Shown piece after piece: positions 3,001 through 24,496 of a stretch of DNA of 33,904 nt (position 1 is the first letter of the stretch; each line of letters begins with the position of its first letter). The stretch spans positions 1 through 33,904 of the forward strand of contig JAOAIJ010000051.1 of NCBI GenBank assembly GCA_026414765.1. The letters are read 5' to 3'. Under the pieces are notes generated by a model. The model was not told the DNA's origin. It searched no databases and saw only the letters and a list, made by a program, of their open reading frames with translations. A program made the position numbers and the translations under genes. Source of the DNA: Clostridia bacterium (lineage in GTDB: Bacteria > Bacillota > Clostridia > Acetivibrionales > DSM-27016).

Positions 3001-5715
3001 CGAGGTTTGCCCTCTGTCTACTAAAGTAGAAGTAGTAACTAACGTATTAGTTTGTGTCAGTGTATCAAACATATAAAGATTAGTATCTGTTGATGATGAT
3101 TGAGTAACTATACAATAAATATTTGTACCATAAGACGTAAGTGCAAATGATACACCGGATGTCCATCCGTTTCCTGAATAGCACAATTGTGACCACGTAG
3201 AACCACTGTCTTTTGAAACAAAGAATTTTATATGTTGATTGATACTATCGTAAACACCAGTTACAAACCACCCATTACTCAGCCTTGTTATCTTTCTGCC
3301 ACCGTTTCCGCTTAAATCATAAGCACTTCCTGCTACTGTAGTTGGCGGTGATGGTACTGTTGCTGCATTATCCTGTCCATAGAAGCGTACTGCCCCAGAT
3401 ACGCTATCTTTCCATATGGTTAAAGGCACTGAAAAATCATTATAATCAGCACATACTTGCGGATAGGTATTATTTCCGTTTCCGGATGTAGTAATATCTA
3501 CTCTTGTACTCCATGTGCCACCAAGTGTTTTTTTCTTGTATCTAACAAACCAGTTTGTACTAGTGACACTATCCCAAACAATAAATACTTCATTGTTTTT
3601 ATTTGCTGTGATACTCGGATTTCTTTGAGCATTATTCCCGCCGGTCGTTTCTATCTTTGTGGGAGCTGACCAGGTAATTCCATCATCTATACTGTTTGAA
3701 TAGAATACAGTTTCATATGCACTATCAATACTGTCTTTACCTTGCCATGCTACATGGAATTCACCATTTGGTGATATGACGGCACTAGGGTTTGATTGAA
3801 CATAGGAATAACCCTTATAAATCCAGTTATTATTCCAACCCGCAGTAGAAGTCCACCCCTTAGTAGATAATGCAGTAGAAAATACACCTATTTCATTTTG
3901 ACTCGTAGAACCTTGAAACTGGCATATAATATAAGGAATACCGTTTTTAAGCACGATACTGGGATTTGTATACCCTGTTATTGTAGTGGTATCCTGTGAA
4001 ATTTGAGTTGGAGAATTCCATGTTACTCCACCATCTGTACTCTTAATGTATCGAATATTAAATAAATTAGGATATGAGCTATTTTTACTTGCCCAAGCGG
4101 CATGGATTACCCCATTTGAGTCTACTGCTATACTACAGCCATTAAATGCTGTTTGTGCTTCAATAAAAGTATTATTTAGTATACTTCCTTGTGTTACAGT
4201 TGTTGCATCAAATTTTAAGAAAGATGCACTTCCTACACTAAAAAAATATACATTTGTACCGTAACTACAGATTGCATAACTGTTCACACCTGCTCCTGTA
4301 TTACTGGAACATAGTAAAGACCATGTTTGTCCGCTATCCTTACTAATATGAAAATTAACAACACTACCTGTATAGGCTGCTGCTACATACCACCCATTAC
4401 TTAATCTGGTTATCTTCCTTCCACCATTTCCGCTTGTATCATAGGCAGAGTTCGCCACAAACGTTGGAATCGACGCAGCTATGTTTACAGTTTTACCGCT
4501 CATCCAATCACTTACATTGCCATTTATCGAAAAGCGGTATGAATTGTCGGCTACTATTGTTCCGCTTTCACTTGCCGGCTTTACGGCAATAACTGAATTT
4601 GTGGTAGATGATACTGCAAAATCACCTGATATTGCTTTACCTACTGTAAAGCTAACAGTTTGAGTCACAGGTGCAACACCATCCGATACTTCATATTTTA
4701 TGTTGTGATTGCCCTGAGACAATTTGCTCACGTCTATAGATGCAAACATTACATCCTGTGGAGATGCTGTGTTTGATATCACCCGCGTTTCACGAGGGGT
4801 ATCTTCTGTGTCGATATAATACCTGCATGTTAAAGTGCTGTTATCTGCATCGGATACTTGAATCGATGGAATAAACACATCATTTTCACTGAACACCTGA
4901 TTTGAAACAGGTGTTTTCACGGTTATTAAAGGGACGCTATTTGGATAATATTTATCCACTGGAGGCGTAAAATTTGATGTCCACCGGGCTATCCCTTTGG
5001 ATATACGTAGTTCATCAATATAACCATTAAATATTTTTGTTTCTCTACCACCAATTTGCAGATTATTATTTTGAACAACTAGCGATAAAGAGGATGTGAA
5101 ACTTGTAACCAAGTTACCGTTTTTAAAAATATAAAAAGTATTACCATTTCTTGAAATCGCCCAATGTGTCCATGTGTTTAAAGGAATTACTCCCATATCA
5201 ACATTACTGGCAATATCCCACGATGAACCATTTGATGACATAAACAATTTATAATTTCCACCATAGCATATTACTGCAAATGCTTCCCATGTATTTACAC
5301 CAGTTCTTGCAATTGCACTCATATTGTCACCTTTTGCAATTACATAATCCCACCAATCGATAGTAAAATTACCATTTCCAAAATCAAAATCTGTTGAGTT
5401 TGTGATACTTAAGTAATCCCCACTCCCATCAAAATACGCACTGCTTCCTCCAAATTTACTCTGTGCGGTACTTATCTGAGCATCCCCATAAGCTGTTACT
5501 GCCTTTCCGCTCTCTTCAGTAAACGATTTTGACCCATTTGCCCCGTCAAAATGCAGTAGAGCTTTTGTATACTGGTCATCTACGGCTGCATACGCTTTGC
5601 TGCCCAGTTCAATCAACTGTCCGCCTGCGTCAAAGTTGATTGTGACTCCTGTGCTTACGATCATTACAACTACCATTATTACTGCTAAAACCTTTGAGGT
5701 CTTTCTGCCTGGCAT
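1..5715 (-). CDS. Giant modular secreted surface protein (LamG, duplicated Asp-box propeller, FN3 array, cohesin-like), 3' part outside window
   Basis: The frame is open without a stop from an ATG at 5715 to the left edge, giving 1905 residues and no C-terminus. AAAGGGGG lies about 8 nt before the ATG. Visible order: a basic N-terminus and signal peptide (about 1-43, ending near AYAAVDD); a LamG/concanavalin-like domain (about 50-250, with FDGSGDYLSI and GYIDELRIS); a cadherin/Ig-like segment (about 255-360); two tandem 374-residue propeller modules (from 425 and 799), each with three Asp boxes of the S-x-D-x-G-x-T-W type whose Trp are at 465, 566, 682 and 841, 949, 1056; seven to eight FN3 domains about 85-90 residues apart (about 1150-1805); and the start of a cohesin-like beta domain (about 1812 on). 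The family context suggests an exported protein that binds glycans or other surfaces. FN3 plus cohesin-like domains ahead of a long C-terminus also occur in RHS/YD-repeat wall proteins, but no YD repeat is inside the window. No catalytic residues could be assigned. Confidence 0.88.
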   Translation of the reverse strand, partial: MPGRKTSKVLAVIMVVVMIVSTGVTINFDAGGQLIELGSKAYAAVDDQYTKALLHFDGANGSKSFTEESGKAVTAYGDAQISTAQSKFGGSSAYFDGSGDYLSITNSTDFDFGNGNFTIDWWDYVIAKGDNMSAIARTGVNTWEAFAVICYGGNYKLFMSSNGSSWDIASNVDMGVIPLNTWTHWAISRNGNTFYIFKNGNLVTSFTSSLSLVVQNNNLQIGGRETKIFNGYIDELRISKGIARWTSNFTPPVDKYYPNSVPLITVKTPVSNQVFSENDVFIPSIQVSDADNSTLTCRYYIDTEDTPRETRVISNTASPQDVMFASIDVSKLSQGNHNIKYEVSDGVAPVTQTVSFTVGKAISGDFAVSSTTNSVIAVKPASESGTIVADNSYRFSINGNVSDWMSGKTVNIAASIPTFVANSAYDTSGNGGRKITRLSNGWYVAAAYTGSVVNFHISKDSGQTWSLLCSSNTGAGVNSYAICSYGTNVYFFSVGSASFLKFDATTVTQGSILNNTFIEAQTAFNGCSIAVDSNGVIHAAWASKNSSYPNLFNIRYIKSTDGGVTWNSPTQISQDTTTITGYTNPSIVLKNGIPYIICQFQGSTSQNEIGVFSTALSTKGWTSTAGWNNNWIYKGYSYVQSNPSAVISPNGEFHVAWQGKDSIDSAYETVFYSNSIDDGITWSAPTKIETTGGNNAQRNPSITANKNNEVFIVWDSVTSTNWFVRYKKKTLGGTWSTRVDITTSGNGNNTYPQVCADYNDFSVPLTIWKDSVSGAVRFYGQDNAATVPSPPTTVAGSAYDLSGNGGRKITRLSNGWFVTGVYDSINQHIKFFVSKDSGSTWSQLCYSGNGWTSGVSFALTSYGTNIYCIVTQSSSTDTNLYMFDTLTQTNTLVTTSTLVDRGQTSIGSGISIAVDSNGKLWAAWSSKNASYPNCFNIRVSSSTDGGQTWAAPTQVTNADYTGYNMTNPCIVVRNNLPIILYQYYYSTVKPIMCSVFNGTKWTDYTVYNNSSYAQENPSVDVSPDGTIHAVWYGLDSTDTNAYNIRYAKSTDGGVTWSAATKLTSGNSLHQGSPSVVSDKNNCVYVVWIMNIGSLTQIKKMVWTGNVWSSQTILTNSSGNQSYPQTCNNYRDFSDPIMIWQDNQTPSIKFRGTWRKSAEISFKQENLSPNTKYPVKLETKDSAGNITAYTKDVYTIAEIPKLTTTTPSATSVILTVTDSNPAYTQYQITCGSKYINQLGKLTSTPVWITLTNKKITVTGLMAGTSYTFRLKARNAEGIETEPSNSISTLSQTPPLPAPEGLTATGQSAGKIRITWKLVEGAAGYLVEVDGDAANLKDAGTNLWYEHTGLEAGSVHRYRVCAKNGETQGNWSTVVSAKTKQLPPNAPSSVVVNPTGTTATITWSGVIGAVDYDIELDGEIKALGNTTTYIHTGLKPLTQHTYRVRAKNTEGVGVWSELQSAVTTSGIPTTAPEVTTVAYTNEAVTLNWNMVTDAESYEVVEVINSIDSEPVDTGMAAAFESRGLMPGSSHTYKVRAKNSMGAGPWSNLINVTLYILDTPKNIAYTESDKEITFSWDAVQGAASYEISLDNQIITGITGTSYTKKDLLPETKYNLRIRAVGSSGESGWSMEIPVFTLPEKPGVPSNVNAAVSNTTITLSWTLVTGAEGYDIELDGVIIENDSNTTTYIHSELEPFTLHTYRVRARNSAVAGDWSEKRSIRTLPGKPESPDWIIVNSMQTGATLSWGAELGATGYDIEVFDGTNTTIVQNISRTNYTHRRVAQGVECRYRIRTRNVEGASSWSGYIINNAIKANCKKNNTVDLGLTATDVVDFSSYTMTVTYNSGVIEVADLCTLSGKAELTAGKIEGTDITIKEFTPGRIVFVVDKAVDPGEAWTGVINSIKFKAKVT
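2200..3321 (-). repeat. Second copy of duplicated Asp-box propeller module
   Basis: Residues 799 to about 1172. It opens with YDLSGNGGRKITRLSNGWF and has the Asp boxes SKDSGSTW, STDGGQTW and STDGGVTW. The 15 residues SGNGGRKITRLSNGW are identical to the first copy, and other blocks (IAVDSNG, SYPNxFNIR, NPSxxxSPxG) recur at matching offsets. The downstream limit is approximate because the sequence merges into the first FN3-like domain. Confidence 0.75.
3322..4443 (-). repeat. First copy of duplicated Asp-box propeller module
   Basis: Residues 425-798 of the giant protein. The copy opens with YDTSGNGGRKITRLSNGWY and carries the Asp boxes SKDSGQTW, STDGGVTW and SIDDGITW. The next 374 residues open with an almost identical segment, so this is an in-frame tandem duplication of about 1.12 kb. 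The period is exactly 1122 nt between the matching Tyr codons (4443 and 3321). Each copy is long enough for a complete sialidase-like beta-propeller. Confidence 0.8.
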
Positions 5716-8354: not shown

Positions 8355-9965
8355 CTATTTTTTTACAGTCTTTTTTGTTCCTTTAAGTATTTCCTTATCC
8401 AATGGTTTATAATAGGAAGTGTATATCTTTGTCCTGCCTATTATCATACCATCCTTTTTTATTATCTTGTACGTGTCTACAGTATATCCTTTTGAACCTT
8501 TTTGCTTCACCTTGGTTTTCCCTTCTTCGAGAGTAGGATCAGTGATGTACCTGACAGAATTTTCTACAGTTTTTACTAATTTGGATTCGTATTCAGCTCT
8601 CCTCATATTCCCTTCATCAGTTCCTGCTATGGAAAACACAACCTTATTGTCTGCAGTTACACTGCTATAGATTTTTATAGGCCATTCAGATGAGTTTCTG
8701 AATTTGAAGTCAACTTGTCCATATGCTACAGCTGCATCCATTCCAAGTTCCGAATAATTTACGGTAAAACCATGGTTTCTACGTTCTATGACCTGAAATC
8801 CCAAAGGCAGAATACTATTATACAAAGTTGTAGATACCTGACAAATACCTCCTCCAAGCCCCGGTAAAACCTTTCCATCTACGTAGATGTAAGCATCCTT
8901 AAAGCCTGCTTGTTCAGTTCTCTTTCCTACAGCATTGTTAAAGGAGAATATTTCTCCGGGCGCAAGTATTCTTCCGTTGATTTTTGCCACTGCCAGTTTT
9001 ATATTCTGAGCGCGGTTTTTCTCGATTTCAGTATTTGTATTAAAACTTGTTTTCCATGTACTCAATAAGTTTTTAAATAGTTTGGCCTTTACCTCATTTT
9101 CTGTCTGCTTCGGAGCTATAAGCCTGAAGGGTATATCAGCCTGAGAATTTTCCGTCTTTTCGGCCTGAAATACTATCTCTTTCAGTAGGTTTTTGTCCAC
9201 ACTTCTGCCTGTCACATGAGGCACTACAGTAACCTTGGTGTTATTTTCTACCCTGGTATAAGCATCTGCCGGAGCCCGTGTTATTTGTGAGTAGTATTCT
9301 TCAATATTAATCTTTTCAGGCTTCACTGTTCTTACAGGTATAGCAATTTTTAAAGCCTGGCATTTACTGATAGAATCCTTTATATTTTCCATGAAGACAA
9401 CTCTGTCCAGTTCTTCCCCCGCATGACCCGAATGAACAGTTATCTTATCACCAGTTATACTCAGCTCTGCCTGTTTCACCGGTTTCAGATATTTGCTGCC
9501 AATATCAGCCAATAATGAATCAAGCTTATTTTGATCATACTTATATGCTAATTCGATTCTGAAACCTGAGTTTTTAGCCTTGAATATTTCGGATAATCTA
9601 TTTGTAAGTGTCCCTTTTCTCCCATACTCATAAGCTTTTTGAACTGCAGCTATGATATCATAGCTGACCCCTATATCGGAAAAATTCAATTTAGATACTT
9701 TTCCCTTGTAATCAAGAACAAGCTGGGTTGTCTTAACCTTATCCTTATAGCTTTTATTCAACAGATCCGTCAACTCCTGAGTTGTCAGCTTGCCAGCAGC
9801 ATGCCCATTTATATATACACCTTCATATATGGTACTTTTGTTTAGCATCATGGCAATTGTTATAGTCATAAAACCAAGTGTAGTAATAATGAGAGCCAGT
9901 AATATAACGGATATAGCCTTTATGTTTTTCTGTTGAAAATATGCTTTAAAATTTTGTGGTATCAT
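8355..9965 (-). CDS. VanW-family envelope protein with G5 domain
   Basis: 536 residues. One N-terminal membrane anchor (about 17-41) is followed by an extracytoplasmic region resembling tandem PG_binding_4 domains (about 45-290), the VanW domain (about 310-437, with GEIFSFNNAVG and GLGGGICQVSTTLYN) and a C-terminal G5-like domain (about 455-528). The architecture is that of peptidoglycan-associated proteins in Firmicutes. The VanW domain was named from vancomycin clusters but its reaction is unknown, and no vanHAX genes are here. GGGAG lies about 10 nt before the ATG. It follows the first histidine kinase gene after 117 bp, so it could be the last gene of that operon or have its own promoter. 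The domain calls are sure; the role in wall assembly is inferred. Confidence 0.88.
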   Translation of the reverse strand: MIPQNFKAYFQQKNIKAISVILLALIITTLGFMTITIAMMLNKSTIYEGVYINGHAAGKLTTQELTDLLNKSYKDKVKTTQLVLDYKGKVSKLNFSDIGVSYDIIAAVQKAYEYGRKGTLTNRLSEIFKAKNSGFRIELAYKYDQNKLDSLLADIGSKYLKPVKQAELSITGDKITVHSGHAGEELDRVVFMENIKDSISKCQALKIAIPVRTVKPEKINIEEYYSQITRAPADAYTRVENNTKVTVVPHVTGRSVDKNLLKEIVFQAEKTENSQADIPFRLIAPKQTENEVKAKLFKNLLSTWKTSFNTNTEIEKNRAQNIKLAVAKINGRILAPGEIFSFNNAVGKRTEQAGFKDAYIYVDGKVLPGLGGGICQVSTTLYNSILPLGFQVIERRNHGFTVNYSELGMDAAVAYGQVDFKFRNSSEWPIKIYSSVTADNKVVFSIAGTDEGNMRRAEYESKLVKTVENSVRYITDPTLEEGKTKVKQKGSKGYTVDTYKIIKKDGMIIGRTKIYTSYYKPLDKEILKGTKKTVKK

Positions 9966-10082
9966 AGCACAGCAGCTCCCGGAAATACATTATTGTAAAC
10001 CTTACACTACAATTGTTGCACTATTTTGAGCGATATACAATTAAATCTAAATCAATTTTGTATTTCAGTTTTCTTACATACA

Positions 10083-11477
10083 CTAAACCTTGTTTTTAGG
10101 CAGTGCAGCTATGAATTCCGTACCTTCACCAAAAACGCTTTTAACCTTAATACTTCCTTCATGTGCCTCCATTATTGTCTTTGATATGGTCAATCCGATA
10201 CCTGAGCCGCCAGTCAACCTATTTCTTGATTTATCAGCACGATAGAAGCGTTCGAAAATATAAGGAAGATCTTCCTGAGGGATTCCCGGACCGTTATCCT
10301 TTACTACAATCTCAGTAATATCCTCTGTTCCTTTAACCTTCACCTCTACAACACCTCCGACAGGAGTATATTTTAAAGCATTTGATAACAGATTGACTAT
10401 CACCTGGCTGATTTTATCCTTATCTGCAAAAATTATATCCTCCCTGCCAGATAAAATTAAGTTAATGTTCTTATTAAGAAAATCACTTTCAAAATTCTTG
10501 ATTATCTTCCCGACGAGCTCAAATAAATCAAATTTTTCCTTATTTATGATAAGATTCTCACCCTCGAATCTTGCAAGTCTTTCCAGATCTCCTACCATTC
10601 TACTTATTCTCATTATTTCCTCATGACAGCTCTTCAGCCTTTCCGTATCAGGCTTCCATATACCATCTATCATAGCTTCCATATGGCTTTGAAGTGTTGC
10701 AAGAGGTGTCCTCAGCTCATGTGCAACATCTGCTGTCAGCCTTTTTCTTAATAACTCCTGTTTTTCAAGTGTGCCGGCAAGATTGTTTATAGTATCCGTA
10801 AGCTGTACTATTTCCTTTGTATTTGATTTCACCGTAAGTCTATCGTTAAAGTACCCTTTTGATATCATCTGTGCTGTTTTTATTACTCTTGTTATAGGGG
10901 TACTAAGCCTTCTTGCCATAATCCCGCCAATTATCAGTGAGAAAAACAATGAAAATATTCCCACTATTACAAGCAGTTTGTTTAAGGTGTTTATAAAAGC
11001 CAGGTCGCTGTCTGTGTAGTAGTAAGGACCATAATACCCTATGATTATTTTACCGACTACATTTTTACCTGATAATACCGGATACTGATCCGAAGTATAG
11101 TTACCCTTCCAATTCGGGTAGCGGCTCATCATATTATGAGCCATATGCTCAAGCATCTGCTGGCATAAGCCGCTGTTATGAATTGTTGCATCCCATACCA
11201 CCTTGCCTTTTGAGTCCAATATCTTAATAATCATTCCTTGTTCAAGAGCGTTTATACCTATATTTTCAATATCCTTGCCATCCCACTGCTCATTGTTCCT
11301 GAACTGTTGACTGACCATAGAGACTATTTCCTTGTTTTTTCTCTCTTGGTTCTTTATTATATAGTCTTTAAAATGCTTTTCCAAAAGCACATTTGTGATA
11401 TAGCTGATCAAAGCCACGCATACGATGGCAACAAATATATATGACAAGGATAGTTTAGTTCTTAAACTGACTTTCAT
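10083..11477 (-). CDS. Two-component sensor histidine kinase (system 1)
   Basis: 464 residues. TM1 (about 8-31) and TM2 (about 166-188) enclose an extracellular domain of about 130 residues, then come HAMP (about 189-241), HisKA with the phosphorylated H253 in VAHELRTPLATL, and HATPase_c with N (LLSNALKYTP), G1 (DNGPGIP), F (IFERFYR) and G2 (GGSGIGL) boxes. The sensor region contains a cluster of possible metal ligands at 105-117 (C105, M108, H111, M112, H114, M116, M117) and an aromatic patch GYYGPYYYTDSD. It starts 17 nt after the regulator stop, so the two are co-transcribed and it should phosphorylate that regulator. The signal is not known; metal or envelope stress is a guess from the ligand cluster. 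Confidence 0.93.
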   Translation of the reverse strand: MKVSLRTKLSLSYIFVAIVCVALISYITNVLLEKHFKDYIIKNQERKNKEIVSMVSQQFRNNEQWDGKDIENIGINALEQGMIIKILDSKGKVVWDATIHNSGLCQQMLEHMAHNMMSRYPNWKGNYTSDQYPVLSGKNVVGKIIIGYYGPYYYTDSDLAFINTLNKLLVIVGIFSLFFSLIIGGIMARRLSTPITRVIKTAQMISKGYFNDRLTVKSNTKEIVQLTDTINNLAGTLEKQELLRKRLTADVAHELRTPLATLQSHMEAMIDGIWKPDTERLKSCHEEIMRISRMVGDLERLARFEGENLIINKEKFDLFELVGKIIKNFESDFLNKNINLILSGREDIIFADKDKISQVIVNLLSNALKYTPVGGVVEVKVKGTEDITEIVVKDNGPGIPQEDLPYIFERFYRADKSRNRLTGGSGIGLTISKTIMEAHEGSIKVKSVFGEGTEFIAALPKNKV

Positions 11478-11494
11478 TCAGATTTCACCTGCCC

Positions 11495-12196
11495 CTAAGT
11501 CCCTCCGAACTTATACCCTACACCATGTACTGTTAATACATATCTTGGTGATTTGGAATCGGATTCGATTTTTTGTCTTAGATTTTTTATATGCGTATCT
11601 ATTGTTCTGTCATAACCGTCATAATCCTGTCCCATAGCCATTGTGACCAGTTCTTCTCTTGTGAATGTTTTAGCGGGATATTTTATCATGGTCATAAGCA
11701 GCTTGTATTCATTGGGAGTAAGATTTACTATTTGCCCGTTTTTTCTGACTTCATAACGAAGTGTGTCTATTGATAAATCATCGTTATTAATTGATATTAC
11801 ACTAGATAAAGGAACCGCTTCGTCCTCGATTCTCCTTAAATGCGCCATTACTCTGGCTACAAGCTGCCGGGGGCTGAAAGGCTTTGTTACATAATCATCA
11901 GCACCTATATTCAAGCCCTTTAAAATATCCTCTTCTTCTATTTTAGCTGTCAGCATAATAATAGGAACACGTGATTTTTTTCTAAGTGTCTTACAAACCT
12001 CTTCGCCTGTCATGTCAGGAAGCATAAGATCCAAAACTACCAAAGAAGGATTTACCTTTTCAAAAACCTCGAGTGCCTGTATACCATTATATGCTTCAAA
12101 TACTGAGTAGCCGTCGTTTTCAAGATATGATTTTACAACCTCTACAATTTTTGTTTCATCATCTACAACAAGTATTCTCTTTGTGTTCTTAAGCAT
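11495..12196 (-). CDS. OmpR-family response regulator (system 1)
   Basis: 233 residues. The receiver domain has the acidic pair D12/D13, phospho-acceptor D56 (VVLDLMLPD) and K105 (VTKPFSP); the C-terminal winged helix includes the usual TFTREELV, RTIDTHIKNLR and VHGVGYKF segments. AGGAGGGG lies just before the ATG. A hairpin, a -10 box and an 11-bp-spaced direct repeat lie upstream and are listed separately; they suggest that the system regulates itself. Its neighbours are its kinase downstream and the ClC channel gene upstream. Confidence 0.94.
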   Translation of the reverse strand: MLKNTKRILVVDDETKIVEVVKSYLENDGYSVFEAYNGIQALEVFEKVNPSLVVLDLMLPDMTGEEVCKTLRKKSRVPIIMLTAKIEEEDILKGLNIGADDYVTKPFSPRQLVARVMAHLRRIEDEAVPLSSVISINNDDLSIDTLRYEVRKNGQIVNLTPNEYKLLMTMIKYPAKTFTREELVTMAMGQDYDGYDRTIDTHIKNLRQKIESDSKSPRYVLTVHGVGYKFGGT

Positions 12197-15706: not shown

Positions 15707-17197
15707 TCACATCATTTTTGCCTGATCCATTTCAAACCAGAACTCTACTCCTCCACCCACGTTTTCCACACCATATTGGTTTTGAGATGCTTCCTGGATT
15801 GCCTTTACAATTGACAATCCCAATCCTGTCCCTCCAAAACTCCTGGTGCGTGCCTTATCAACCTTATAAAAGCTTATCCATATTTTTTCTATCTCATCCT
15901 TGTCAATATGCGAGCCTGAATTAAACACCGAAATTCTTACCTTTCCGTTAACCTTCCTGATTGCAATCCTTATTTCTTTTTTTTCATTTATGTGGTCTAA
16001 TGCATTGCACAAATAATTTGTAAGAACCTGTTCAGTTTTATCATAATCCGCATTTACTCCGGTATTTTCTTCACAGTCTATCTTTACCTCAACATCTTTT
16101 TCTTTTAAGACTATCGAACTCTTTTTCAATACGCTATTAACCAGTTCCAGTACTTCAAAATCGACTTTTTCAAGCCCCGCAATTCCTGATTCAAGCTTAG
16201 ACAACTCAAGAAGCTCCTTTACCAGCTTATTCATTTTTTGTGTTTCATTCATTATTGTTTCACAATAAAAGTTCTTATTCTCTTCATCTTCATTCACATT
16301 TACCTTTAATCCTTCTGCATATCCTTGTATGAGTGCAATAGGCGTTTTAAGTTCATGTGAAACATTTGAAATAAATTCTTTCCTCATTTCATCGATTTTT
16401 CTTTCTTTCTCTATATCTTCCATAAGCTTTTTATTAGCCTGTTTAAGTTCAAGTATGGATTTTTCCAGCTGCTCCGACAGAGAATTGATACTTGAGCCCA
16501 GCTGGCCTATTTCATCCGTACTGTTTACATTATATCTTTTGCTAAAATCAAGTTCAGCCATTCCTTTGGTAATATTGTTCAACTCAAGTATGGGGCCAGT
16601 AAACCTTCCTGTTAGAAAATAAATTATTATACAACCGGAAAATATAGTAATAATACCTGTGAGCAGAAAGAACTTATTGGCAATATCTGCACTCTCCTGC
16701 ATGGCAGTCACAGATGTGTTTAGCACCAGGAAATCCCCATTGTTCAGTTTTGAAAAGAGTGTTATGAAATTAGTGTTCAATCTTGAATCTTTGCCAATTT
16801 CTATAAGTATTTTACCCTGCAACACCTGGCTGATTTTTGAATTCTTTAGCATATCACGTACTTCCATGTTCAGATTAGGCACTCTCGGACCATTTCTTCT
16901 TAATTTGGAATCTATGAATCTCTCATTAAAGAAGTATTTTATCTTAAATTCCTTGTCAAGTATGATAATACGCAATCCCTTATTGCTCTCGAATTTTTCA
17001 AGGTCCAGATAGATTGCTTCTGGATCGCCGCTATATGTATTATTTATTTGGTTATAGCAATCCATAAGAGTATTTTTTTTTGTGTAAATATAATACTTGT
17101 CAAGAAAAAAACTATTAAGCAGCCAGGACAGGAGCACAAAAAGAAGTATAAGCCCACTTATAGATAAGAACAGCTTTCTTTTAATAGAAAAATTCAT
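15707..17197 (-). CDS. Two-component sensor histidine kinase (system 2)
   Basis: 496 residues. TM1 (about 10-32) and TM2 (about 173-196) flank an extracellular domain of about 140 residues. HAMP (about 193-247), a short coiled coil, HisKA with H281 in SNVSHELKTPIALIQGY, and a HATPase_c domain (SFYKVDKARTRSFGGTGLGL) follow. The H-box context is that of VanS/PhoR-like clostridial kinases. It starts 26 nt after the regulator stop with GGAGA as ribosome binding site. No ligand residues stand out in the sensor domain. The MFP-ABC-SLH operon lies just upstream of the pair and is a plausible target. Confidence 0.93.
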   Translation of the reverse strand: MNFSIKRKLFLSISGLILLFVLLSWLLNSFFLDKYYIYTKKNTLMDCYNQINNTYSGDPEAIYLDLEKFESNKGLRIIILDKEFKIKYFFNERFIDSKLRRNGPRVPNLNMEVRDMLKNSKISQVLQGKILIEIGKDSRLNTNFITLFSKLNNGDFLVLNTSVTAMQESADIANKFFLLTGIITIFSGCIIIYFLTGRFTGPILELNNITKGMAELDFSKRYNVNSTDEIGQLGSSINSLSEQLEKSILELKQANKKLMEDIEKERKIDEMRKEFISNVSHELKTPIALIQGYAEGLKVNVNEDEENKNFYCETIMNETQKMNKLVKELLELSKLESGIAGLEKVDFEVLELVNSVLKKSSIVLKEKDVEVKIDCEENTGVNADYDKTEQVLTNYLCNALDHINEKKEIRIAIRKVNGKVRISVFNSGSHIDKDEIEKIWISFYKVDKARTRSFGGTGLGLSIVKAIQEASQNQYGVENVGGGVEFWFEMDQAKMM

Positions 17198-17223: not shown

Positions 17224-17901
17224 TCAGACTTTCACTTCAAATTTATATCCAAGTCCCCTGATAGTTTGGATATATTCTCCCCTGAAACCCAGTTTAAGTC
17301 TTAAATTCTTTATATGAGTATCCACTGTACGCACATCGCCATAGTAATCAAAATTCCATATTACATTCAATATCTTTTCTCTTGATAATGCAATACCTTC
17401 ATTTTCAGCTAAATATGCAAGCAGCTCAAATTCCTTAGGGCTTAATTCTATAATTCCGCCGTCTACATAAACCGTATGGCCTATTTCATCTATTCTTAAT
17501 CCTTCATAGTCCTTTATGGGTTTTTTCTCTTTTCCTGCTCTTCTCAACACGGCTTGAACTCTTGCCATCAGTATCAATGGGCTGAATGGTTTTGTGACAT
17601 ATTCGTCAACACCTATTTCAAACCCAAACAGTTCGTCAGCCTCTTCACCTCTGGCTGTAAGCATTATTACAGGCACTTTGGAAACTGCTCTTATTTCCCT
17701 GCAGGCAGTCCACCCATCCATAACCGGCATCATTACATCCAAAATCAGCAAATCTATGTTTTGTTCATTATGAAATATATTTAGAGCTTTTCTTCCATCT
17801 TCCGCTTCAAATACAATATATCCTTCTTTTTTTAAGAAATCTGACACCAGCTTTCTCATAGCCGGCTCATCATCCGCAATCAATATCCTGCCTTTTTCCA
17901 A
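17224..17901 (-). CDS. OmpR-family response regulator (system 2)
   Basis: 225 residues, starting at TTG (17901) with AGGAGG 8 nt before it; the ATG between them is out of frame. The receiver has D10/D11, phospho-acceptor D55 (LLILDVMMPVMDG) and K104 (VTKPFSP); the winged helix ends in IRGLGYKFEV. It is the partner of the kinase immediately downstream. A TATAAT (complement of 17974-17979) lies about 73 nt upstream of the start codon without a good -35, so this promoter may also need activation. Confidence 0.94.
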   Translation of the reverse strand: MEKGRILIADDEPAMRKLVSDFLKKEGYIVFEAEDGRKALNIFHNEQNIDLLILDVMMPVMDGWTACREIRAVSKVPVIMLTARGEEADELFGFEIGVDEYVTKPFSPLILMARVQAVLRRAGKEKKPIKDYEGLRIDEIGHTVYVDGGIIELSPKEFELLAYLAENEGIALSREKILNVIWNFDYYGDVRTVDTHIKNLRLKLGFRGEYIQTIRGLGYKFEVKV

Positions 17902-18050: not shown

Positions 18051-18086
18051 GTGATAGGAACCAAATAACACTCTGGTTCCTATCAT
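18051..18086 (-). terminator. Long perfect inverted repeat after the SLH-protein gene
   Basis: GATAGGAACCA (18053-18063) and TGGTTCCTATC (18074-18084) form an 11-bp stem with a 10-nt loop, 26 nt after the stop codon. There is no T-run on either side, so termination would be factor-dependent, or the stem may protect the 3' end. Confidence 0.5.
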
Positions 18087-18109: not shown

Positions 18110-20440
18110 TTATTGCTTAACTATTATCACTTCTACTTTTCCTCCCTGTTCAACCGGCTTGTCAAGGTAAACGGAAACAGTACCATACATTACATTTGCA
18201 CTCAAATCTGCCAAACTCTTATGTGTCAGATTGCCTGCATAGTCAAGGAAGTAAACGGTTATGTTTTTATTGAACCACAATGTTTTTTCGTTTAGCTTTA
18301 TCCGTTTTGAATCAAAAGCCTGTACCGAAGTACCTGATACATCAGCATTCTTACACTTATTATCTACTATGGTTTCTATGCGTTTTTCCGACATCTTAAC
18401 TTTTACAACTGAACCAATATTGCTATCGTTGATATACGACTCACTATACTGATAGTCCTTACCATCCACAAGTAGAGTATAATTGTAGGAATATATTCCT
18501 TTTGGATTTTTAGTTACTGTCAGACTTTTTATTACAGCAGTTTTGTATTTTTCATTCAGCAAATCATCTGTCAATAATACATTAATATCTTCAAAAGCAC
18601 CTGCCTTATTTATGAAATACACCTTGCCATCAGGTATTGCACCCTCCGGTAAATCCCCAAAATCAAGCAGATTTGCCTGCACATCAACCCCTGCATCATT
18701 GGAAACAATGTTGAATATCCTTACATTATCCGCTACATAGCTTGTTCCAATATTTCTGGTCTTTTTGTCTACATATAGACCTTTGGGGAAATTGTAAACA
18801 AACTGCTCAAGCTTAACCTTCTGACTGTCTATCTTTGTAAACCTCACCAGTTTGCCTTTATACTGCGACGCATCAGAACCTACATCGTATGTTATTGTCA
18901 GCCCATCTGCTGTCAGAAGTTTAGCATAATAGGTAAAATTAACCGTTCCGTTATTATTTGAAGACACCTTATTGCTGCTGTTTAGTACCAAAGCATAGTC
19001 TGAATTATTTTCACTCCCCGGATAATCAAGTGCCACTATTTTTCCGTCGTAGCCAAGTAACGCAACTATTATATCGTCTATATTAAATGACCCTGGTGTG
19101 TAGTTCAGCTTGTTATACTCAATACTCTGGTCGAACTCATAGTTTATACCGTCAATCTGAAGTGTCTTTGGCGAAAGTTTATCAGGCAGTATAGCTGTTA
19201 TTTTCCCTCCCACTCTTTTGTTAAGTGCAAGTATATAGCTATACCTGTTCCAGATATCTGACACCTTGTATATTACATCCTTCTCCTGAATCAATGTTAT
19301 ATCTGACAAAGTCCCGTCTCTGACTACTGTGATGTTACCGGACAAGTCGATGGAACCGAGTCTTTTGCTTGAAGGGTCAAAAGATTTTGCTACTTCAGGC
19401 TTGCTGTACACTGGGTCAAAAATCACTGCATACTCATAGCCAGTTTTGTTCTTGTTATATGTAAATACTAGCGAGCTTCTGGTTTTTATTATGTTTTTCA
19501 AGTTTTCATACGGCTGTTTTACACCTTGATAGTAATATGCAGTATTATTGGGCAGTGTCCTGTATTTTATCTCTTCTCCAGAATTATATGAAATCCTTGT
19601 TTCTACTATATTATCTACAGATATGTTTTCAACAGTTTTTGAGCTATCATAGGCAGCATTGATTGTATCACCGTCAAAAACCAATCTGTAAGTCTTTCCA
19701 AGTTCCAGCTTTATATTTTTACTTTTCAGATAGAATATACCTCTGTCGGTCATTACCTGATTTTCTTGTAGTTTATCCGATATAGCAGAGTTTGCATATA
19801 CTATGCATTGAGTAAACAAACCCGATGCTTCAGCAAAACTTTTATCGGTTTCTGCAGAGCCTATCTTTTTTATGTTCGTATCTAAAAGTCTGTCTATCAT
19901 CAGTGCTAAAGCCCATTTCTCAACACTGTCACTGCTTTTTAGCTTAATACCCTCAGTCAGTCCCAGCTTTGCTGCTTTTTCTATATAGTTTTTGGGCCAC
20001 AAGCCTGTAACATCCTGGTCGGTATACCCTAAAGCCCTTACTGTAGCAGTACATACCTGTGCAAATGTAATTTTAGCTTTAGGCTGAAACCTGCCATCGG
20101 GCATCCCCGGAACATAACCTTTTTCAACTGCCAGAGCTATGTATCCCGAAGATGAACTTTTTGGATCAACATCAGGAAATATTGTTGAACCTTTTAGTGA
20201 ATCTGCAGTATCGGTAAGTCCCGTTGCTTTTACCATAATAACTGCAAATAATTCTCTTGTTATGTATTCCTGTGGCTTATAAGCATCTTTTGTCGCGCCA
20301 GGTATTATGCCAAGAGAATTAAGTCTGTTTGCAGCTTCTGTATAAGCTGCATTTTGAGGTATATCTCTAAAGTCTGCATATGCAATAGTTGAAATACATA
20401 TCAGCACCATCACCAAGGCCAGTGACATTATCTTTTTCAT
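18110..20440 (-). CDS. S-layer homology (SLH) domain protein encoded with an ABC efflux system
   Basis: 776 residues from the ATG at 20440. AGGAGG is 8 nt before this ATG and only 2 nt before the GTG at 20446, which is therefore less likely. A signal peptide (about 1-22, cut near IAYADF) is followed by three SLH repeats (about 24-75, 86-139 and 147-194), which anchor proteins to secondary wall polymer. The remaining 580 residues are beta-rich and Tyr/Asn-rich, with no recognised catalytic domain. It begins 42 nt after the permease stop, so it is the last gene of the membrane-fusion/ABC operon. That linkage suggests a wall-level partner or cargo of the transporter (inference). Confidence 0.87.
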   Translation of the reverse strand: MKKIMSLALVMVLICISTIAYADFRDIPQNAAYTEAANRLNSLGIIPGATKDAYKPQEYITRELFAVIMVKATGLTDTADSLKGSTIFPDVDPKSSSSGYIALAVEKGYVPGMPDGRFQPKAKITFAQVCTATVRALGYTDQDVTGLWPKNYIEKAAKLGLTEGIKLKSSDSVEKWALALMIDRLLDTNIKKIGSAETDKSFAEASGLFTQCIVYANSAISDKLQENQVMTDRGIFYLKSKNIKLELGKTYRLVFDGDTINAAYDSSKTVENISVDNIVETRISYNSGEEIKYRTLPNNTAYYYQGVKQPYENLKNIIKTRSSLVFTYNKNKTGYEYAVIFDPVYSKPEVAKSFDPSSKRLGSIDLSGNITVVRDGTLSDITLIQEKDVIYKVSDIWNRYSYILALNKRVGGKITAILPDKLSPKTLQIDGINYEFDQSIEYNKLNYTPGSFNIDDIIVALLGYDGKIVALDYPGSENNSDYALVLNSSNKVSSNNNGTVNFTYYAKLLTADGLTITYDVGSDASQYKGKLVRFTKIDSQKVKLEQFVYNFPKGLYVDKKTRNIGTSYVADNVRIFNIVSNDAGVDVQANLLDFGDLPEGAIPDGKVYFINKAGAFEDINVLLTDDLLNEKYKTAVIKSLTVTKNPKGIYSYNYTLLVDGKDYQYSESYINDSNIGSVVKVKMSEKRIETIVDNKCKNADVSGTSVQAFDSKRIKLNEKTLWFNKNITVYFLDYAGNLTHKSLADLSANVMYGTVSVYLDKPVEQGGKVEVIIVKQ

Positions 20441-20488
20441 CTTCACATCCTCCTGTGTCTTTTTATCTGTTTTCTTTATTTTGTGACA

Positions 20489-21667
20489 TTATTCAAACCT
20501 GAGTGCTTCAATAGGGTTAAGTTTCGCAGCCTTATAAGCCGGAAACATTCCGAATATCACTCCTACCAGCAACGAAATTCCAAAGGATAATGCAACCCAA
20601 AATGTAGAATATACAGGTGTAGTAATTTTAAGTCCGCCTATTACAAATTTAATTACCGACAAGCCTATAATTACACCGATAAACCCACCTATACCCGTAA
20701 CCATTATTGCCTCAATCAGAAATTGTATCATAATATTTTTTCTCTTCGCTCCAATAGCCTTGCGGATACCAATCTCTCTTGTTCTTTCCGTAACTGATAC
20801 CAGCATAATATTCATTATCCCGATACCTCCTACTATTAAAGAAATTGCGGCTATACCCCCAAGAACCACCATTAACGTACCTGTTATGCTGTTAAGCATG
20901 TCAATAGCCTGTGCTTGATTAAATACTCTGAATGTTGTTTCATCTTTGTAGATTTTGGTTAAAAATGTATTAAGCTTTTCCATCACATTTTCTACTACTT
21001 CTGGTGAAGCTGCCTGAACTGCAAAGTTTCTTATATTGGCCTCCTTGCTCAGTCTTTGCGCCACTGTAACAGGAATGATCACCTGATCATCAATAGATTG
21101 ATCCTGCCCGTTTTCTTTCTGTTCAAGTATACCCACCACCTTGAATACCTGTCCGTTTATTTTTATATTCTGTCCCAGAGGATTTCTCCCTTCAAACAAC
21201 TCGTTTACTATCCTCGTGCCTATTACCGCTACCTTCTGCCTATAGTCATTATCCAGAGTAAGGAGAAAACGCCCGGACTGAACATGTCTGCTCCTTATTG
21301 TTTCATATTCAGGACTGGTTCCAACCATGGAAGTATCCGTACTGTCTGTTCCTGCCTTTACAGTCACATTGGAGCTTATTTGGGGAGTTACGGCAGTAAT
21401 TTCACTGCTGTTTTCTTCTGCAAATTTCTGCAGATCTGTATATGTAACATTTCTATTACTGTTCCTACCAACAATAGATATTTGTATAAGATTTGTTCCC
21501 ATTTCCTCAAGAGAGCTTGTTATGCTTTTTGTACTTCCCTGTGCAAAGGCCACAGCTGATATTACAGAACCTACTCCTATTATTACTCCCAGCATTGTAA
21601 GAAATGATCGGACTTTATTGCTCCGTATACTCTTTATAGCCATCTTAAAGGCCTGTAAGAAGCTCAA
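20489..21667 (-). CDS. MacB/FtsX-type ABC transporter permease
   Basis: 392 residues. One N-terminal membrane segment (about 19-40, after SIRSNKVRSFLTMLGVIIG), a large extracytoplasmic MacB periplasmic-core-like domain (about 45-265), and three C-terminal segments (from about 270) with the FtsX signature VTERTREIGIRKAIGAKR. The start is TTG at 21667, directly after the ATPase TGA, with GGGAGGTGG upstream inside the ATPase gene, so translation is coupled. MacB-type permeases act by mechanotransmission with a membrane-fusion protein and export peptides, lipids or drugs, or confer resistance to them. Confidence 0.92.
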   Translation of the reverse strand: MSFLQAFKMAIKSIRSNKVRSFLTMLGVIIGVGSVISAVAFAQGSTKSITSSLEEMGTNLIQISIVGRNSNRNVTYTDLQKFAEENSSEITAVTPQISSNVTVKAGTDSTDTSMVGTSPEYETIRSRHVQSGRFLLTLDNDYRQKVAVIGTRIVNELFEGRNPLGQNIKINGQVFKVVGILEQKENGQDQSIDDQVIIPVTVAQRLSKEANIRNFAVQAASPEVVENVMEKLNTFLTKIYKDETTFRVFNQAQAIDMLNSITGTLMVVLGGIAAISLIVGGIGIMNIMLVSVTERTREIGIRKAIGAKRKNIMIQFLIEAIMVTGIGGFIGVIIGLSVIKFVIGGLKITTPVYSTFWVALSFGISLLVGVIFGMFPAYKAAKLNPIEALRFE

Positions 21668-22345
21668 TCAGCCCACCTCCCTGTCTTCAATGATTTCTCC
21701 GTCCTGAATTCTCACCACACGTTTAGCCTGATTAGCTATATTGTTGTCGTGAGTTATGAGAATAATAGTATTACCTTTATCATGAAGTTCTTTTAGGATT
21801 CTCATAATTTCGGTACCGGATTTTGAATCAAGGTTTCCTGTAGGTTCATCGGCAAGGATAATCGGTGGGTCACTCACCAAAGCTCTTGCGATTGCTACCC
21901 TCTGCTGCTGTCCGCCTGATAGTTCTGTAGGCTTGTGATGTATTCTTTCACCAAGACCCACAGTTTCCAGGGCAGCACTGCTTCTTCTATGCCTCTCTTT
22001 TGCTCCTATCCCCTGATATATCAATGGAAGCTCTACATTTTCCAGTGCTGTAAGCTTTTGGAGAAGATTAAAGCCCTGAAATATAAAACCGATTTTATTG
22101 TTCCTTATATCAGCAAGCTGGTTGTCATTTAGCTTGCTCACCTCAAAATTATCAAGGATATATGTACCTGACGTTGGAGTGTCAAGACATCCAAGCATAT
22201 TCATTAGCGTTGACTTGCCTGATCCGGAAGGGCCTATTATTGCTACGAACTCGTGCTTGTTTATTTGCAGTGAAACATTATTCAAAGCCTTTATCATATT
22301 GTCACCCATCCGGTATATCTTGCACATATTTGATATATGTATCAT
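21668..22345 (-). CDS. MacB/LolD-type ABC transporter ATPase
   Basis: 225 residues, complete ATPase: Walker [10 protein letters not shown] (38-46), Q-loop in FIFQGFN (about 87-93), signature LSGGQQQ (142-148), Walker B and catalytic Glu in IILADEPTG (162-170, E167), and the H-loop in ILITHD. This is the usual length for the MacB/LolD/SalX group. GGGAGG lies before the ATG. It starts 15 nt after the membrane-fusion protein stop and abuts the permease gene. Confidence 0.95.
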
Positions 22346-22360
22346 AATGTCCTCCCGGCG

Positions 22361-24262
22361 TTATTTTCTTTCACCCGAAGAATTATTACTTTGGGTATTA
22401 TTTCTATTTCTTTCGGGATTTCCGCCAAAACCACCGCCTAAGCCTCCCATACCACCTATGCCGCCTATGTTGCTTCGGACTTGCATATTATTCTGCGAAG
22501 AGCTATTGGCCAAAGGTGGTAAAATAACTTCGTCTCCTTCATTTAGACCACTGACTATCTCAATATACTGGTCATTGTTTGTTCCTACTTCAACAGGCTT
22601 CATAACGGCATTAGAATAATACTGTGCATAAGCTGGATTCATTCTCGAGATTCCAGCAGCAAAATTACCGGAATTTGTACCTGTTGAGGCACTATCTGAA
22701 GAATTCCTTCTTCCTCCGCCATTTCCATTACTGTTGTTTCCTGAATTGTTTCTTCTGATTCTGTTTCCATCACTTATTGCATCAGTGCTCTTCTCAACAG
22801 CACCATCTGCTGAATTTCCTTCCTTTTCCTTTACCATTACAAAGCTTCTGTTTCTCATTTTTTGAACAGCTTCAAGGGGAACCACCAGTATGTCTGTTTT
22901 TTCGCTTATCATGATTTCTGCGTCAGCATTCATTCCAACTTTTAAGTCGGCTGCTTCATTGACCTTTATAGTCACAGGATAAGTAGTTACTCCATTTGAT
23001 GATGTACCTTGAATTGCAATCTTTGAAACCTGGCCACCAATGGGCTTTAACAATGTTTCAGGTAATGCTGCAATTGTTATGTTTACTTTTTGTCCGACCT
23101 TTATTTTTGCTATATCAAGTTCATCTATAGAAACACTAAATTCCATATGCCCCGGGTCTGTTATTGTTGTGAGTACATCAGCAGGTTTCACGGAATTTCC
23201 GACTTTTATGTCCTGTAATACTATTACCCCATCTATAGGCGAATAAATCTTATATTCCGACAGCTGTTTTTCTGCGGCAGCAAGCTGATTATTCAAGTCC
23301 TGTATTTTTAAGCCTGTAGTCTGAACAGAAAGCTCCAGGTCATCATTCCTGAACTGTATAAGTGACTGACCTGCACTAACAAACTGATTTTCTTTAACAG
23401 TGATTTTCTCTATTACTCCACCGGAATCACATTTTATTACCTGTGAGTTTACATATTCCAATTTTCCGGTACCTGTGCTTGTGTGCGAACCTGTTTTTGT
23501 TTCAACCTCTACATTTGCACCCATACCAGCCTTTAGTGATCCGGGGTTTGAAAGTGTGATTTCTGCATCATAGACGGCTCCTCCTGTACTTGTAGTAGAA
23601 GGGTTTTTGCTTATGTATGTAACAATACCTTCGACTGACTGCATTAAGTCCTGCACATTTACAATGACTTTCTGACCAGTCTTGATTTCTTGTATGATAG
23701 CTCCGCTAAATGACGCACTTAACTTCAGCTTGGATACATCAGTTATTGTTAACACTGTTGCACCTTTATTAATTTCATCACCAACCTTGGAGAAGGTAAC
23801 GTTTGTTACCTGTCCATCAAAAGGAGCATTTACAATAAGGTTATTCATCCCCTTTTCATTACTGTCAGCTGTTAGCCGGGTCTGCGCTATACTATTCTTA
23901 ATCTTTTCTACATTCAATCTTGCATCGGAATCATCAAGATCAAACAGTAATTCACCGGCTTTTACGGTATCTCCCTCTTTATGATAGATTTTTGTGATTT
24001 TACCTGAAACAGCCGATGTTACCTCTGATTCATTGGAAGATTTCACAGGACCGGATCCTGTTACAGAAACACTAATGCTACCCTTTACAACCTTTTCGGT
24101 TCGCTGCTCTATAGCTGCAGTCTTAACGGAACCGAATCTAAGCACCAGAGCTACGATTATTGCTGTAATTAAGATAAAACAAATCACACCGATGATAACC
24201 GGCTTAGTTTTAATTTTTCTTAAAAGATTATTATTTAGCTTATGATTTGAGTATAATTCCAC
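22361..24262 (-). CDS. Membrane-fusion (HlyD/MacA-like) protein with two tandem lipoyl/barrel modules
   Basis: 633 residues from GTG at 24262. AAGGAGG lies 8 nt before it, whereas a start at 24283 would place that site inside the gene. One membrane anchor (about 17-41) is followed by two adaptor modules. The first (about 60-260) has EVTSAVSGKITKIYHKEGDTV and NAPFDGQVTNVTF lipoyl halves plus a beta-barrel. The second (about 265-470) has IKCDSGGVIEKITVKENQFV, a short hairpin (LNNQLAAAEKQLSEYKIYSP) and IDGVIVLQDIKVGNSV. An Asn/Ser/Gly-rich low-complexity stretch (about 490-535) and a Gly/Asn-rich tail end the protein. Typical MacA or YknX adaptors are shorter (roughly 370-420 residues) with one module. 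It heads the operon and should couple the ABC pair to the wall or outside. Confidence 0.9.
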   Translation of the reverse strand: MELYSNHKLNNNLLRKIKTKPVIIGVICFILITAIIVALVLRFGSVKTAAIEQRTEKVVKGSISVSVTGSGPVKSSNESEVTSAVSGKITKIYHKEGDTVKAGELLFDLDDSDARLNVEKIKNSIAQTRLTADSNEKGMNNLIVNAPFDGQVTNVTFSKVGDEINKGATVLTITDVSKLKLSASFSGAIIQEIKTGQKVIVNVQDLMQSVEGIVTYISKNPSTTSTGGAVYDAEITLSNPGSLKAGMGANVEVETKTGSHTSTGTGKLEYVNSQVIKCDSGGVIEKITVKENQFVSAGQSLIQFRNDDLELSVQTTGLKIQDLNNQLAAAEKQLSEYKIYSPIDGVIVLQDIKVGNSVKPADVLTTITDPGHMEFSVSIDELDIAKIKVGQKVNITIAALPETLLKPIGGQVSKIAIQGTSSNGVTTYPVTIKVNEAADLKVGMNADAEIMISEKTDILVVPLEAVQKMRNRSFVMVKEKEGNSADGAVEKSTDAISDGNRIRRNNSGNNSNGNGGGRRNSSDSASTGTNSGNFAAGISRMNPAYAQYYSNAVMKPVEVGTNNDQYIEIVSGLNEGDEVILPPLANSSSQNNMQVRSNIGGIGGMGGLGGGFGGNPERNRNNTQSNNSSGERK

Positions 24263-24330
24263 TATTATAGCCCTCCTTGCCAATCTTTGATGCGCCTGGA
24301 TTTGTCAAACAGCTGATTTAGAAGAGTTCG

Positions 24331-24412: not shown

Positions 24413-24428
24413 CAAATACAGGTAAAAT

Positions 24429-24475
24429 AAAAACGAACTACCCGGTCATCTACAATACCGGACAGTTCGTTTTTA
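24429..24475 (-). terminator. Strong terminator of the Ca2+-ATPase gene
   Basis: AAAAACGAACT (24429-24439) pairs with AGTTCGTTTTT (24464-24474). A 2x2 internal loop and a second stem CCGGT/ACCGG lie inside. The minus-strand tail is TTTTTATTTT. It lies directly after the ATPase stop at 24497 and insulates the next operon. Confidence 0.88.
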
Positions 24476-24496
24476 TTTTCAATATCAGACTATAAA

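Follow-up and report, generated by a model that had tools for sequence, protein, structure and literature searches.

We analysed a 33,904-nt stretch of DNA from a Clostridia bacterium (contig JAOAIJ010000051.1 of assembly GCA_026414765.1; hereafter the window), in which an operon for a MacB-type transporter closes with a gene for an S-layer homology (SLH) protein. The reading we favour, at a probability of roughly 50%, is that these genes specify a four-component MacB-type exporter (type VII ATP-binding cassette, ABC) of an apparent monoderm, and that the fourth product is its SLH-anchored, wall-level subunit. By sequence, this protein has an N-terminal signal peptide, an anchor of SLH repeats in which the arginine is kept, and a long C-terminal region (SLHc) found mostly behind MacB-type permeases. 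The protein is best read as holding the slot that TolC holds elsewhere. An earlier note on this DNA had offered two roles for it, wall-level partner or exported product; exchange with a TolC-like protein and re-pairing with divergent pumps favour the partner, with roles as cargo or as a bystander less probable.

The four-gene operon and its products

All four genes were placed on the minus strand of the window in the order adaptor, ATPase, permease and SLH protein, confirming both the operon and the succession first proposed for it. Its features are as follows.

22361..24262, minus strand: membrane fusion protein (MFP), HlyD-type adaptor, 633 residues, GTG start preceded by AAGGAGG
21668..22345, minus strand: ABC ATPase, MacB/LolD/YknY type, 225 residues
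20489..21667, minus strand: MacB-type permease, 392 residues, MacB_PCD and FtsX domains
18110..20440, minus strand: predicted SLH-anchored secreted protein, 776 residues from ATG 20440, with signal peptide, SLH repeats and SLHc
20252..20371, minus strand: SLH repeat 1, PF00395, 31 bits
20054..20179, minus strand: SLH repeat 2, PF00395, 43 bits
18113..19858, minus strand: SLHc region, residues 195-776 (582 residues), no Pfam family

Alternative starts exist for the MFP (TTG at 24283 in the open-reading-frame listing, giving 640 residues) and for the SLH gene (GTG at 20446, giving 778 residues). The MFP and ATPase genes are separated by 15 nt, the ATPase and permease genes abut (0 nt), and the gap between permease and SLH genes is 48 nt to the ATG at 20440 or 42 nt to the GTG at 20446. 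Gaps of 15, 0 and 42 nt had been reported for the operon; the first two hold, but the third belongs to the GTG start and had been paired with the 776-residue product of the ATG. Judged by this spacing, the SLH gene is likely to share a transcript with the pump genes.

The permease matched Pfam MacB_PCD (2.3e-43) and FtsX (2e-21), and MacB was its best match among solved structures (3.7e-60). Hydropathy placed its transmembrane helices at residues 22-40, 266-284, 321-339 and 356-374, with a domain of about 225 residues between the first and second. The ATPase matched ABC_tran (1.1e-34); its best NCBIfam match was MacB, at 285 bits, which is below the cut-off set for the fused protein. The MFP matched HlyD_3 in two stretches (1.4e-34) and TIGR01730 above its cut-off (218 bits), and has a single N-terminal transmembrane helix by hydropathy (residues 22-40). 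These assignments make the ATPase-permease pair a split MacB, and the MFP a double-module adaptor anchored in the membrane. The permease domains and helix layout, the MacB/LolD-type ATPase and the HlyD/MacA-superfamily MFP are those of a MacB (type VII ABC) exporter. None of the four operon products matched the Pfam OEP (TolC) family.

Two barrel-sandwich modules lie in tandem in the adaptor; the short hairpin segments inside them measure 37 and 36 residues. These lengths recurred in 53/72 and 59/72 MFPs, respectively, and longer segments of up to 93 residues were present in 11/72. The window MFP, with segments of 37 and 36 residues, thus lacks the one long alpha-helical hairpin expected for tip-to-tip docking. 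Its C-terminal tail is rich in glycine, and at least nine glycines were found among the last 60 residues in 63/72 MFPs. Mean glycine content of these residues was 28% in MFPs with SLHc (55 loci) and 19% in those without (14 loci); the ranges of the two groups overlap, and the tail was dropped as a mark of SLH-type pumps.

Pfam scored two SLH repeats in the fourth product (5.6e-21); a third, degenerate repeat, to which Pfam gives no score, is presumed by eye. The anchoring arginine of the first repeat (TRxx/TRAE position) was kept in 50 of 51 aligned sequences. The arginine of the presumed third repeat was present in 38 of the 51, with lysine in the window protein, and the second repeat has an aromatic or hydrophobic residue at the corresponding position. 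An excerpt of PMC6081394 gives the arginine of SLH repeats a role in binding secondary cell-wall polymer. The SLH surface protein SpaA of Paenibacillus alvei, as described there, likewise has SLH repeats with a TRAE-type arginine; unlike such proteins, the window protein closes an exporter operon and carries SLHc, which has no Pfam family. The signal peptide is its sole strongly hydrophobic stretch by hydropathy, and no other membrane anchor was found.

Structure prediction was informative for part of SLHc. Whole-region models of three sequences had a mean pLDDT of 44 and returned mostly small-barrel matches in structure searches; the 582-residue model was not used. For the C-terminal 305 residues the model showed small beta barrels joined in a chain, at a mean pLDDT of 75.7, and residues 195-471 of the SLH protein were modelled poorly. 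No fold family was assigned to the 305-residue model, which matched generic OB/SH3-like barrels with Z <8 and low Foldseek TM-scores; no new fold follows from a missing match of this kind. A profile of 26 SLHc sequences searched against solved structures gave one match, which is not meaningful (E 6.7). In the matching genomes of genus g5 (here and below g, f, G, C and L denote genus, family, genome, contig and locus) the match starts at about residue 150 of SLHc, and the core is therefore taken to be its last 430 or so residues. No convincing internal repeats were found when the SLHc profile was compared with itself, and some relatives carry tandem SLHc copies. In-frame stop codons were flagged inside some tandem SLHc matches of family f157 (L163, L166, L167 and L168); these probably lie at match edges, since the open frames are long (916-1075 residues).

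Linkage of SLHc to MacB-type pumps

We searched 197 genomes, the window's own included, with the permease and took the best 85 rows (E up to 1.8e-76). Five rows stand outside the count, four at contig ends (G029, G080, G076 and G162) and G049:C3. Directly 3' of the permease in 80 operons, window included, a hand tally found SLHc in 57, a TolC-like protein in two and neither in 21; neighbours here were labelled by phmmer or profile scores with the window proteins and their relatives, not by curated annotation. The earlier note had named loss of the SLH gene from most orthologous operons as telling against its proposal; with orthology judged by permease similarity, no such loss was found. Related genomes are among those counted here, and the tallies do not stand for independent events, for which changes on the permease tree and re-pairings are a better measure. 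Among 85 permease frames with neighbourhoods, a set partly chosen for having SLHc, 58 had it, 25 did not and two were untestable, and the SLHc label required 8 changes on the permease tree compared with 21.4 in shuffles. The median gap at the 58 permease-SLHc junctions was 22.5 nt, and 48 of them were at most 45 nt (starts picked mechanically).

The linkage was also seen from the SLHc side. SLHc (582 residues) matched in 52 of the 197 genomes, own included. We compiled 55 SLHc genes (the window and L051-L104), three of which (L079, L099 and L104) were untestable at contig ends; a MacB-type permease lay directly 5' on the same strand in 47 of the other 52. In a phylum sample of 398 genomes, SLHc matched in 28, own included, and the permease or whole pump stood beside it in 16 of 24 sampled places (L158-L162, L177-L185, L187 and L190). 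These 24 exclude the window, 23 lie outside its class and L187 within it, and one masked place and five weak matches are uncounted. A giant open frame in this sample was set aside as a masked stretch. The linkage is thus seen across many families within the class and, beyond it, in several more (f99, f105, f157 and f170).

In two operons the slot of the SLH gene is taken by another protein. The permeases of L107 (genome G163) and L108 (G110) are 68% and 67% identical to that of the window, and the next gene, after gaps of 11 and 46 nt, encodes a protein of the OEP/TolC family (E 1.8e-11 and 5.2e-12). These proteins have 383 or 381 residues and a signal-like N-terminus, and the SLHc search of the 197 genomes found no SLHc in either genome. 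On the permease tree L107 and L108 stand beside an SLHc-bearing clade, with the SLHc-bearing L062 and L080 just outside. This position fits a replacement, without proving its direction.

Furthermore, SLHc was found joined to strongly divergent pumps. In family f157 it ends an operon of the normal order in seven loci (L177-L179, L181, L182, L184 and L185) and a second operon, ordered MFP-permease-ATPase-SLHc, in two (L180 and L183). Comparison of the two pump copies within one genome gave identities of 25% for the MFP, 36% for the permease, 80% for the ATPase and 76% for SLHc in G371, and of 26, 32, 85 and 73%, respectively, in G509. In L055 and L061, SLHc sequences 40-42% identical to that of the window are joined to permeases only 32-33% identical. 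The tie between SLHc and MacB-type pumps therefore outlasts changes of the pump itself.

We infer that SLHc would contact the MFP or the permease and that the machine would span the envelope. In such an exporter, ATP hydrolysis would drive the outer domain of the permease, which would push substrate from the outer face of the membrane or the sub-wall space into a presumably hexameric MFP tube. The outer end of that tube would be received or held by the SLHc barrels, themselves fixed in the wall or S-layer through binding of the SLH repeats to a pyruvylated wall polymer, and substrate would thus end up in the wall or beyond it and would not drop back onto the membrane. Analogy with YknXYZ and Spr0693-0695 makes a peptide, antimicrobial or self-made, or a lipid of the envelope the most likely substrate. 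More tentatively, and with less than even odds, we suggest that trans-wall MacB pumps use two interchangeable outer parts, a common SLH-anchored SLHc and a rarer TolC-like protein, SLHc being a docking collar or exit path and hence a wall-anchored TolC counterpart of unrelated fold.

Several observations weigh against a wall-level subunit. The 21 of 80 operons with neither SLHc nor an adjoining TolC-like protein indicate that the pump manages without such a part, and only five of these are in genomes without any SLH match. A rule tying absence of SLHc to absence of every SLH protein, which fits only those five (G060, G093, G127, G144 and G176), was accordingly not used. Conversely, five of the 52 testable SLHc genes had no upstream pump (L053, L059, L067, L077 and L081), nor had eight SLHc-like places beyond the class, most of them weaker matches (L188, L189 and L191-L196). 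The MFPs of L107 and L108 are not among the 11 with longer hairpins, so the swap to a TolC-like protein brings no docking feature. Segment duplication or gene conversion may account for part of the re-pairing in f157, since the ATPase moved with SLHc. The SLHc fold, with Z below 8, offers no functional hint, and SLHc changes faster than the permease (identity to the window of 52 vs 70% in G001 and 39 vs 73% in G005), as would also be expected of a mere product of the pump.

Three of the 21 operons without either partner (G093, G187 and G124) have a kinase and a regulator of NtrC length instead; in L119, L120 and L123 the pump is followed by a sensor kinase and NtrC-length regulator where SLHc would be. 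At L053 (2632-11859), SLHc lies amid permeases that by eye resemble those of sugar ABC transporters and a solute-binding-like protein; downstream of SLHc are an MFP and a protein with MacB_PCD but no Pfam FtsX match.

Other roles for the SLH protein and the neighbouring genes

The operon is flanked by the following features.

24425..24478, minus strand: long hairpin between the P-type ATPase gene and the operon, flanked by A/T runs; stretch -27.4 kcal/mol, z -5.6
18052..18085, minus strand: strong hairpin 3' of the SLH gene, no T-run; stretch -24.8 kcal/mol, z -3.9
17224..17901, minus strand: OmpR/PhoB-type response regulator (Pfam), downstream, separated from the SLH gene by 208 nt
15707..17197, minus strand: HAMP-HisKA sensor kinase (Pfam)

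The upstream neighbour is a Ca-type P-ATPase set apart from the operon by the hairpin at 24425..24478, which is terminator-like and would end the P-ATPase unit. The two-component system, which the earlier note had placed directly downstream, does lie on the same strand, but 208 nt with a strong hairpin intervene. Because of this hairpin, which lacks a T-run, the two genes may form a separate unit, and they are probably linked to the operon by regulation and not by a common transcript. Elsewhere in the window, a 1905-residue open frame on the minus strand (1-5715) runs off the window end; it has Laminin_G_3, BNR repeats and five fn3 stretches and is a candidate large surface protein or sialidase-like enzyme. 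A VanW/G5 protein (8355-12196, minus strand) is encoded directly downstream of a second two-component system.

The neighbouring kinase bears on a rather doubtful alternative, in which the SLH protein reinforces the wall or traps peptides under envelope stress and is co-regulated with the pump without forming a complex. Of 86 loci with the permease, 16 had a sensor kinase related to that of the window no more than 8 kb away from it, and six had a close homologue (>550 bits), upstream or downstream (the window, L051, L060, L069, L111 and L113). The SLHc genes without a pump, and the lack of any interaction domain recognised by Pfam in SLHc, agree with such a bystander. The linkage, however, survives changes of gene order and replacement of the permease and MFP, in most cases with no two-component system linked to it, and co-regulation predicts neither the usual last place in the operon nor a TolC-like protein in the same slot.

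It is unlikely, in our judgement, that the SLH protein is instead the cargo, exported by Sec and then released or pushed through the wall by the transporter, with one exporter for each S-layer-type protein. The last place of its gene, the tight linkage, the duplication along with a transporter and the faster change of SLHc would all follow from such a role, and passages of PMC5985334 describe MacB-type systems as capturing substrates outside the membrane and as able to handle small proteins. Against it, the genome has 27 SLH matches across 16 open frames, 15 of them besides the SLH gene of the operon, and none of the 13 inspected had an MFP or MacB permease within the neighbouring stretch examined. 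Moreover, the protein that fills the slot in L107 and L108 belongs to the TolC family, a known pump part and not a known cargo. An effector role akin to that of FtsEX-PcsB, in which nothing is transported and force through the MFP switches an activity exerted on the wall by the SLH protein, is improbable: MacB-fold transporters do use mechanotransmission, and the partners of FtsEX and LolCDE are not MFPs (excerpts of PMC5985334 and PMC5768738), but an MFP is present here, unlike in FtsEX, and neither Pfam nor a structure search with the C-terminal half of SLHc revealed an enzyme domain (residues 195-471 being poorly modelled).

Host envelope and known systems

No Omp85 match was found in the window's genome, and no outer membrane is therefore expected; the host clostridium appears to have a single membrane. 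A CsaB match above cut-off (TIGR03609, 254.8 bits) indicates that it makes a pyruvylated wall polymer. The genome also has six matches to the OEP (TolC-family) domain, all outside the window operon: four in two adjacent proteins of contig C29 with signal-like N-termini; of the other two, one lies in the adaptor belonging to a second MacB cluster (C21), the other in an MFP-like frame (C9). On C29 (L145, 55014-59749), two OEP-family proteins are followed by a protein with SLH and Big_5 domains and then by a WalRK-like two-component system, and similar OEP pairs near SLH genes were seen in L201, L202, L211 and L213. Seven further loci of clostridial relatives (L205, L207, L209, L210, L212, L215 and L216) combine an OEP-family protein, an MFP and a gene of about 1030 residues, which judged by its length is probably a resistance-nodulation-division (RND) pump. 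These seven are in line with the idea, found in passages of PMC8809574, of TolC-like pumps in monoderms.

The operon resembles MacAB-TolC of Gram-negative bacteria in its four-helix MacB_PCD permease, MacB-like ATPase and HlyD/MacA-type adaptor. It differs in having separate ATPase and permease genes and an SLH protein where TolC would be needed, and the hairpin of MacA, read from alignments, is about 96 residues compared with the two segments of 37 and 36 in the two-module adaptor of the window. A split MacB with an adaptor in a single-membrane Gram-positive is shared with YknWXYZ of Bacillus and Spr0693-0694-0695 of Streptococcus pneumoniae, for which excerpts of PMC5985334 and PMC5768738 name no SLH partner. 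According to these excerpts, YknW is a membrane protein and YknX binds peptidoglycan (PMC5985334), and Spr0693 forms a hairpin barrel 56 A high, a tube by which delivery to the peptidoglycan is possible (PMC5768738). TolC-like parts of tripartite pumps have been proposed in the S-layers of monoderm Firmicutes (sections of PMC8809574). Such pumps, as described there, share with ours a third part at the level of the wall or S-layer without an outer membrane, and L107 and L108 fit them in having a secreted OEP-domain outer part. The window operon lacks such a part, its third part being an SLH-anchored, beta-rich protein that is no TolC relative; the term SLH does not occur in the main text of PMC8809574. 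In open-licence literature on SLH with MacB, MFP or efflux, subscription papers being outside its scope, we recognised no report of this operon. TolC-like S-layer pump parts in monoderms have thus been proposed before; what we add is an SLH-anchored candidate for the outer part.

The role of adaptors in Gram-positive bacteria, which have no outer membrane, is posed as an open question in a review (passages of PMC5985334). SLHc is a concrete wall-anchored candidate for the outer partner of MFP adaptors in monoderms. If the suggestion of two interchangeable outer parts is correct, a wall-anchored counterpart of TolC would answer the puzzle of an adaptor without an outer membrane. On our main reading, SLHc would be a second way of meeting the need that TolC-like parts serve.

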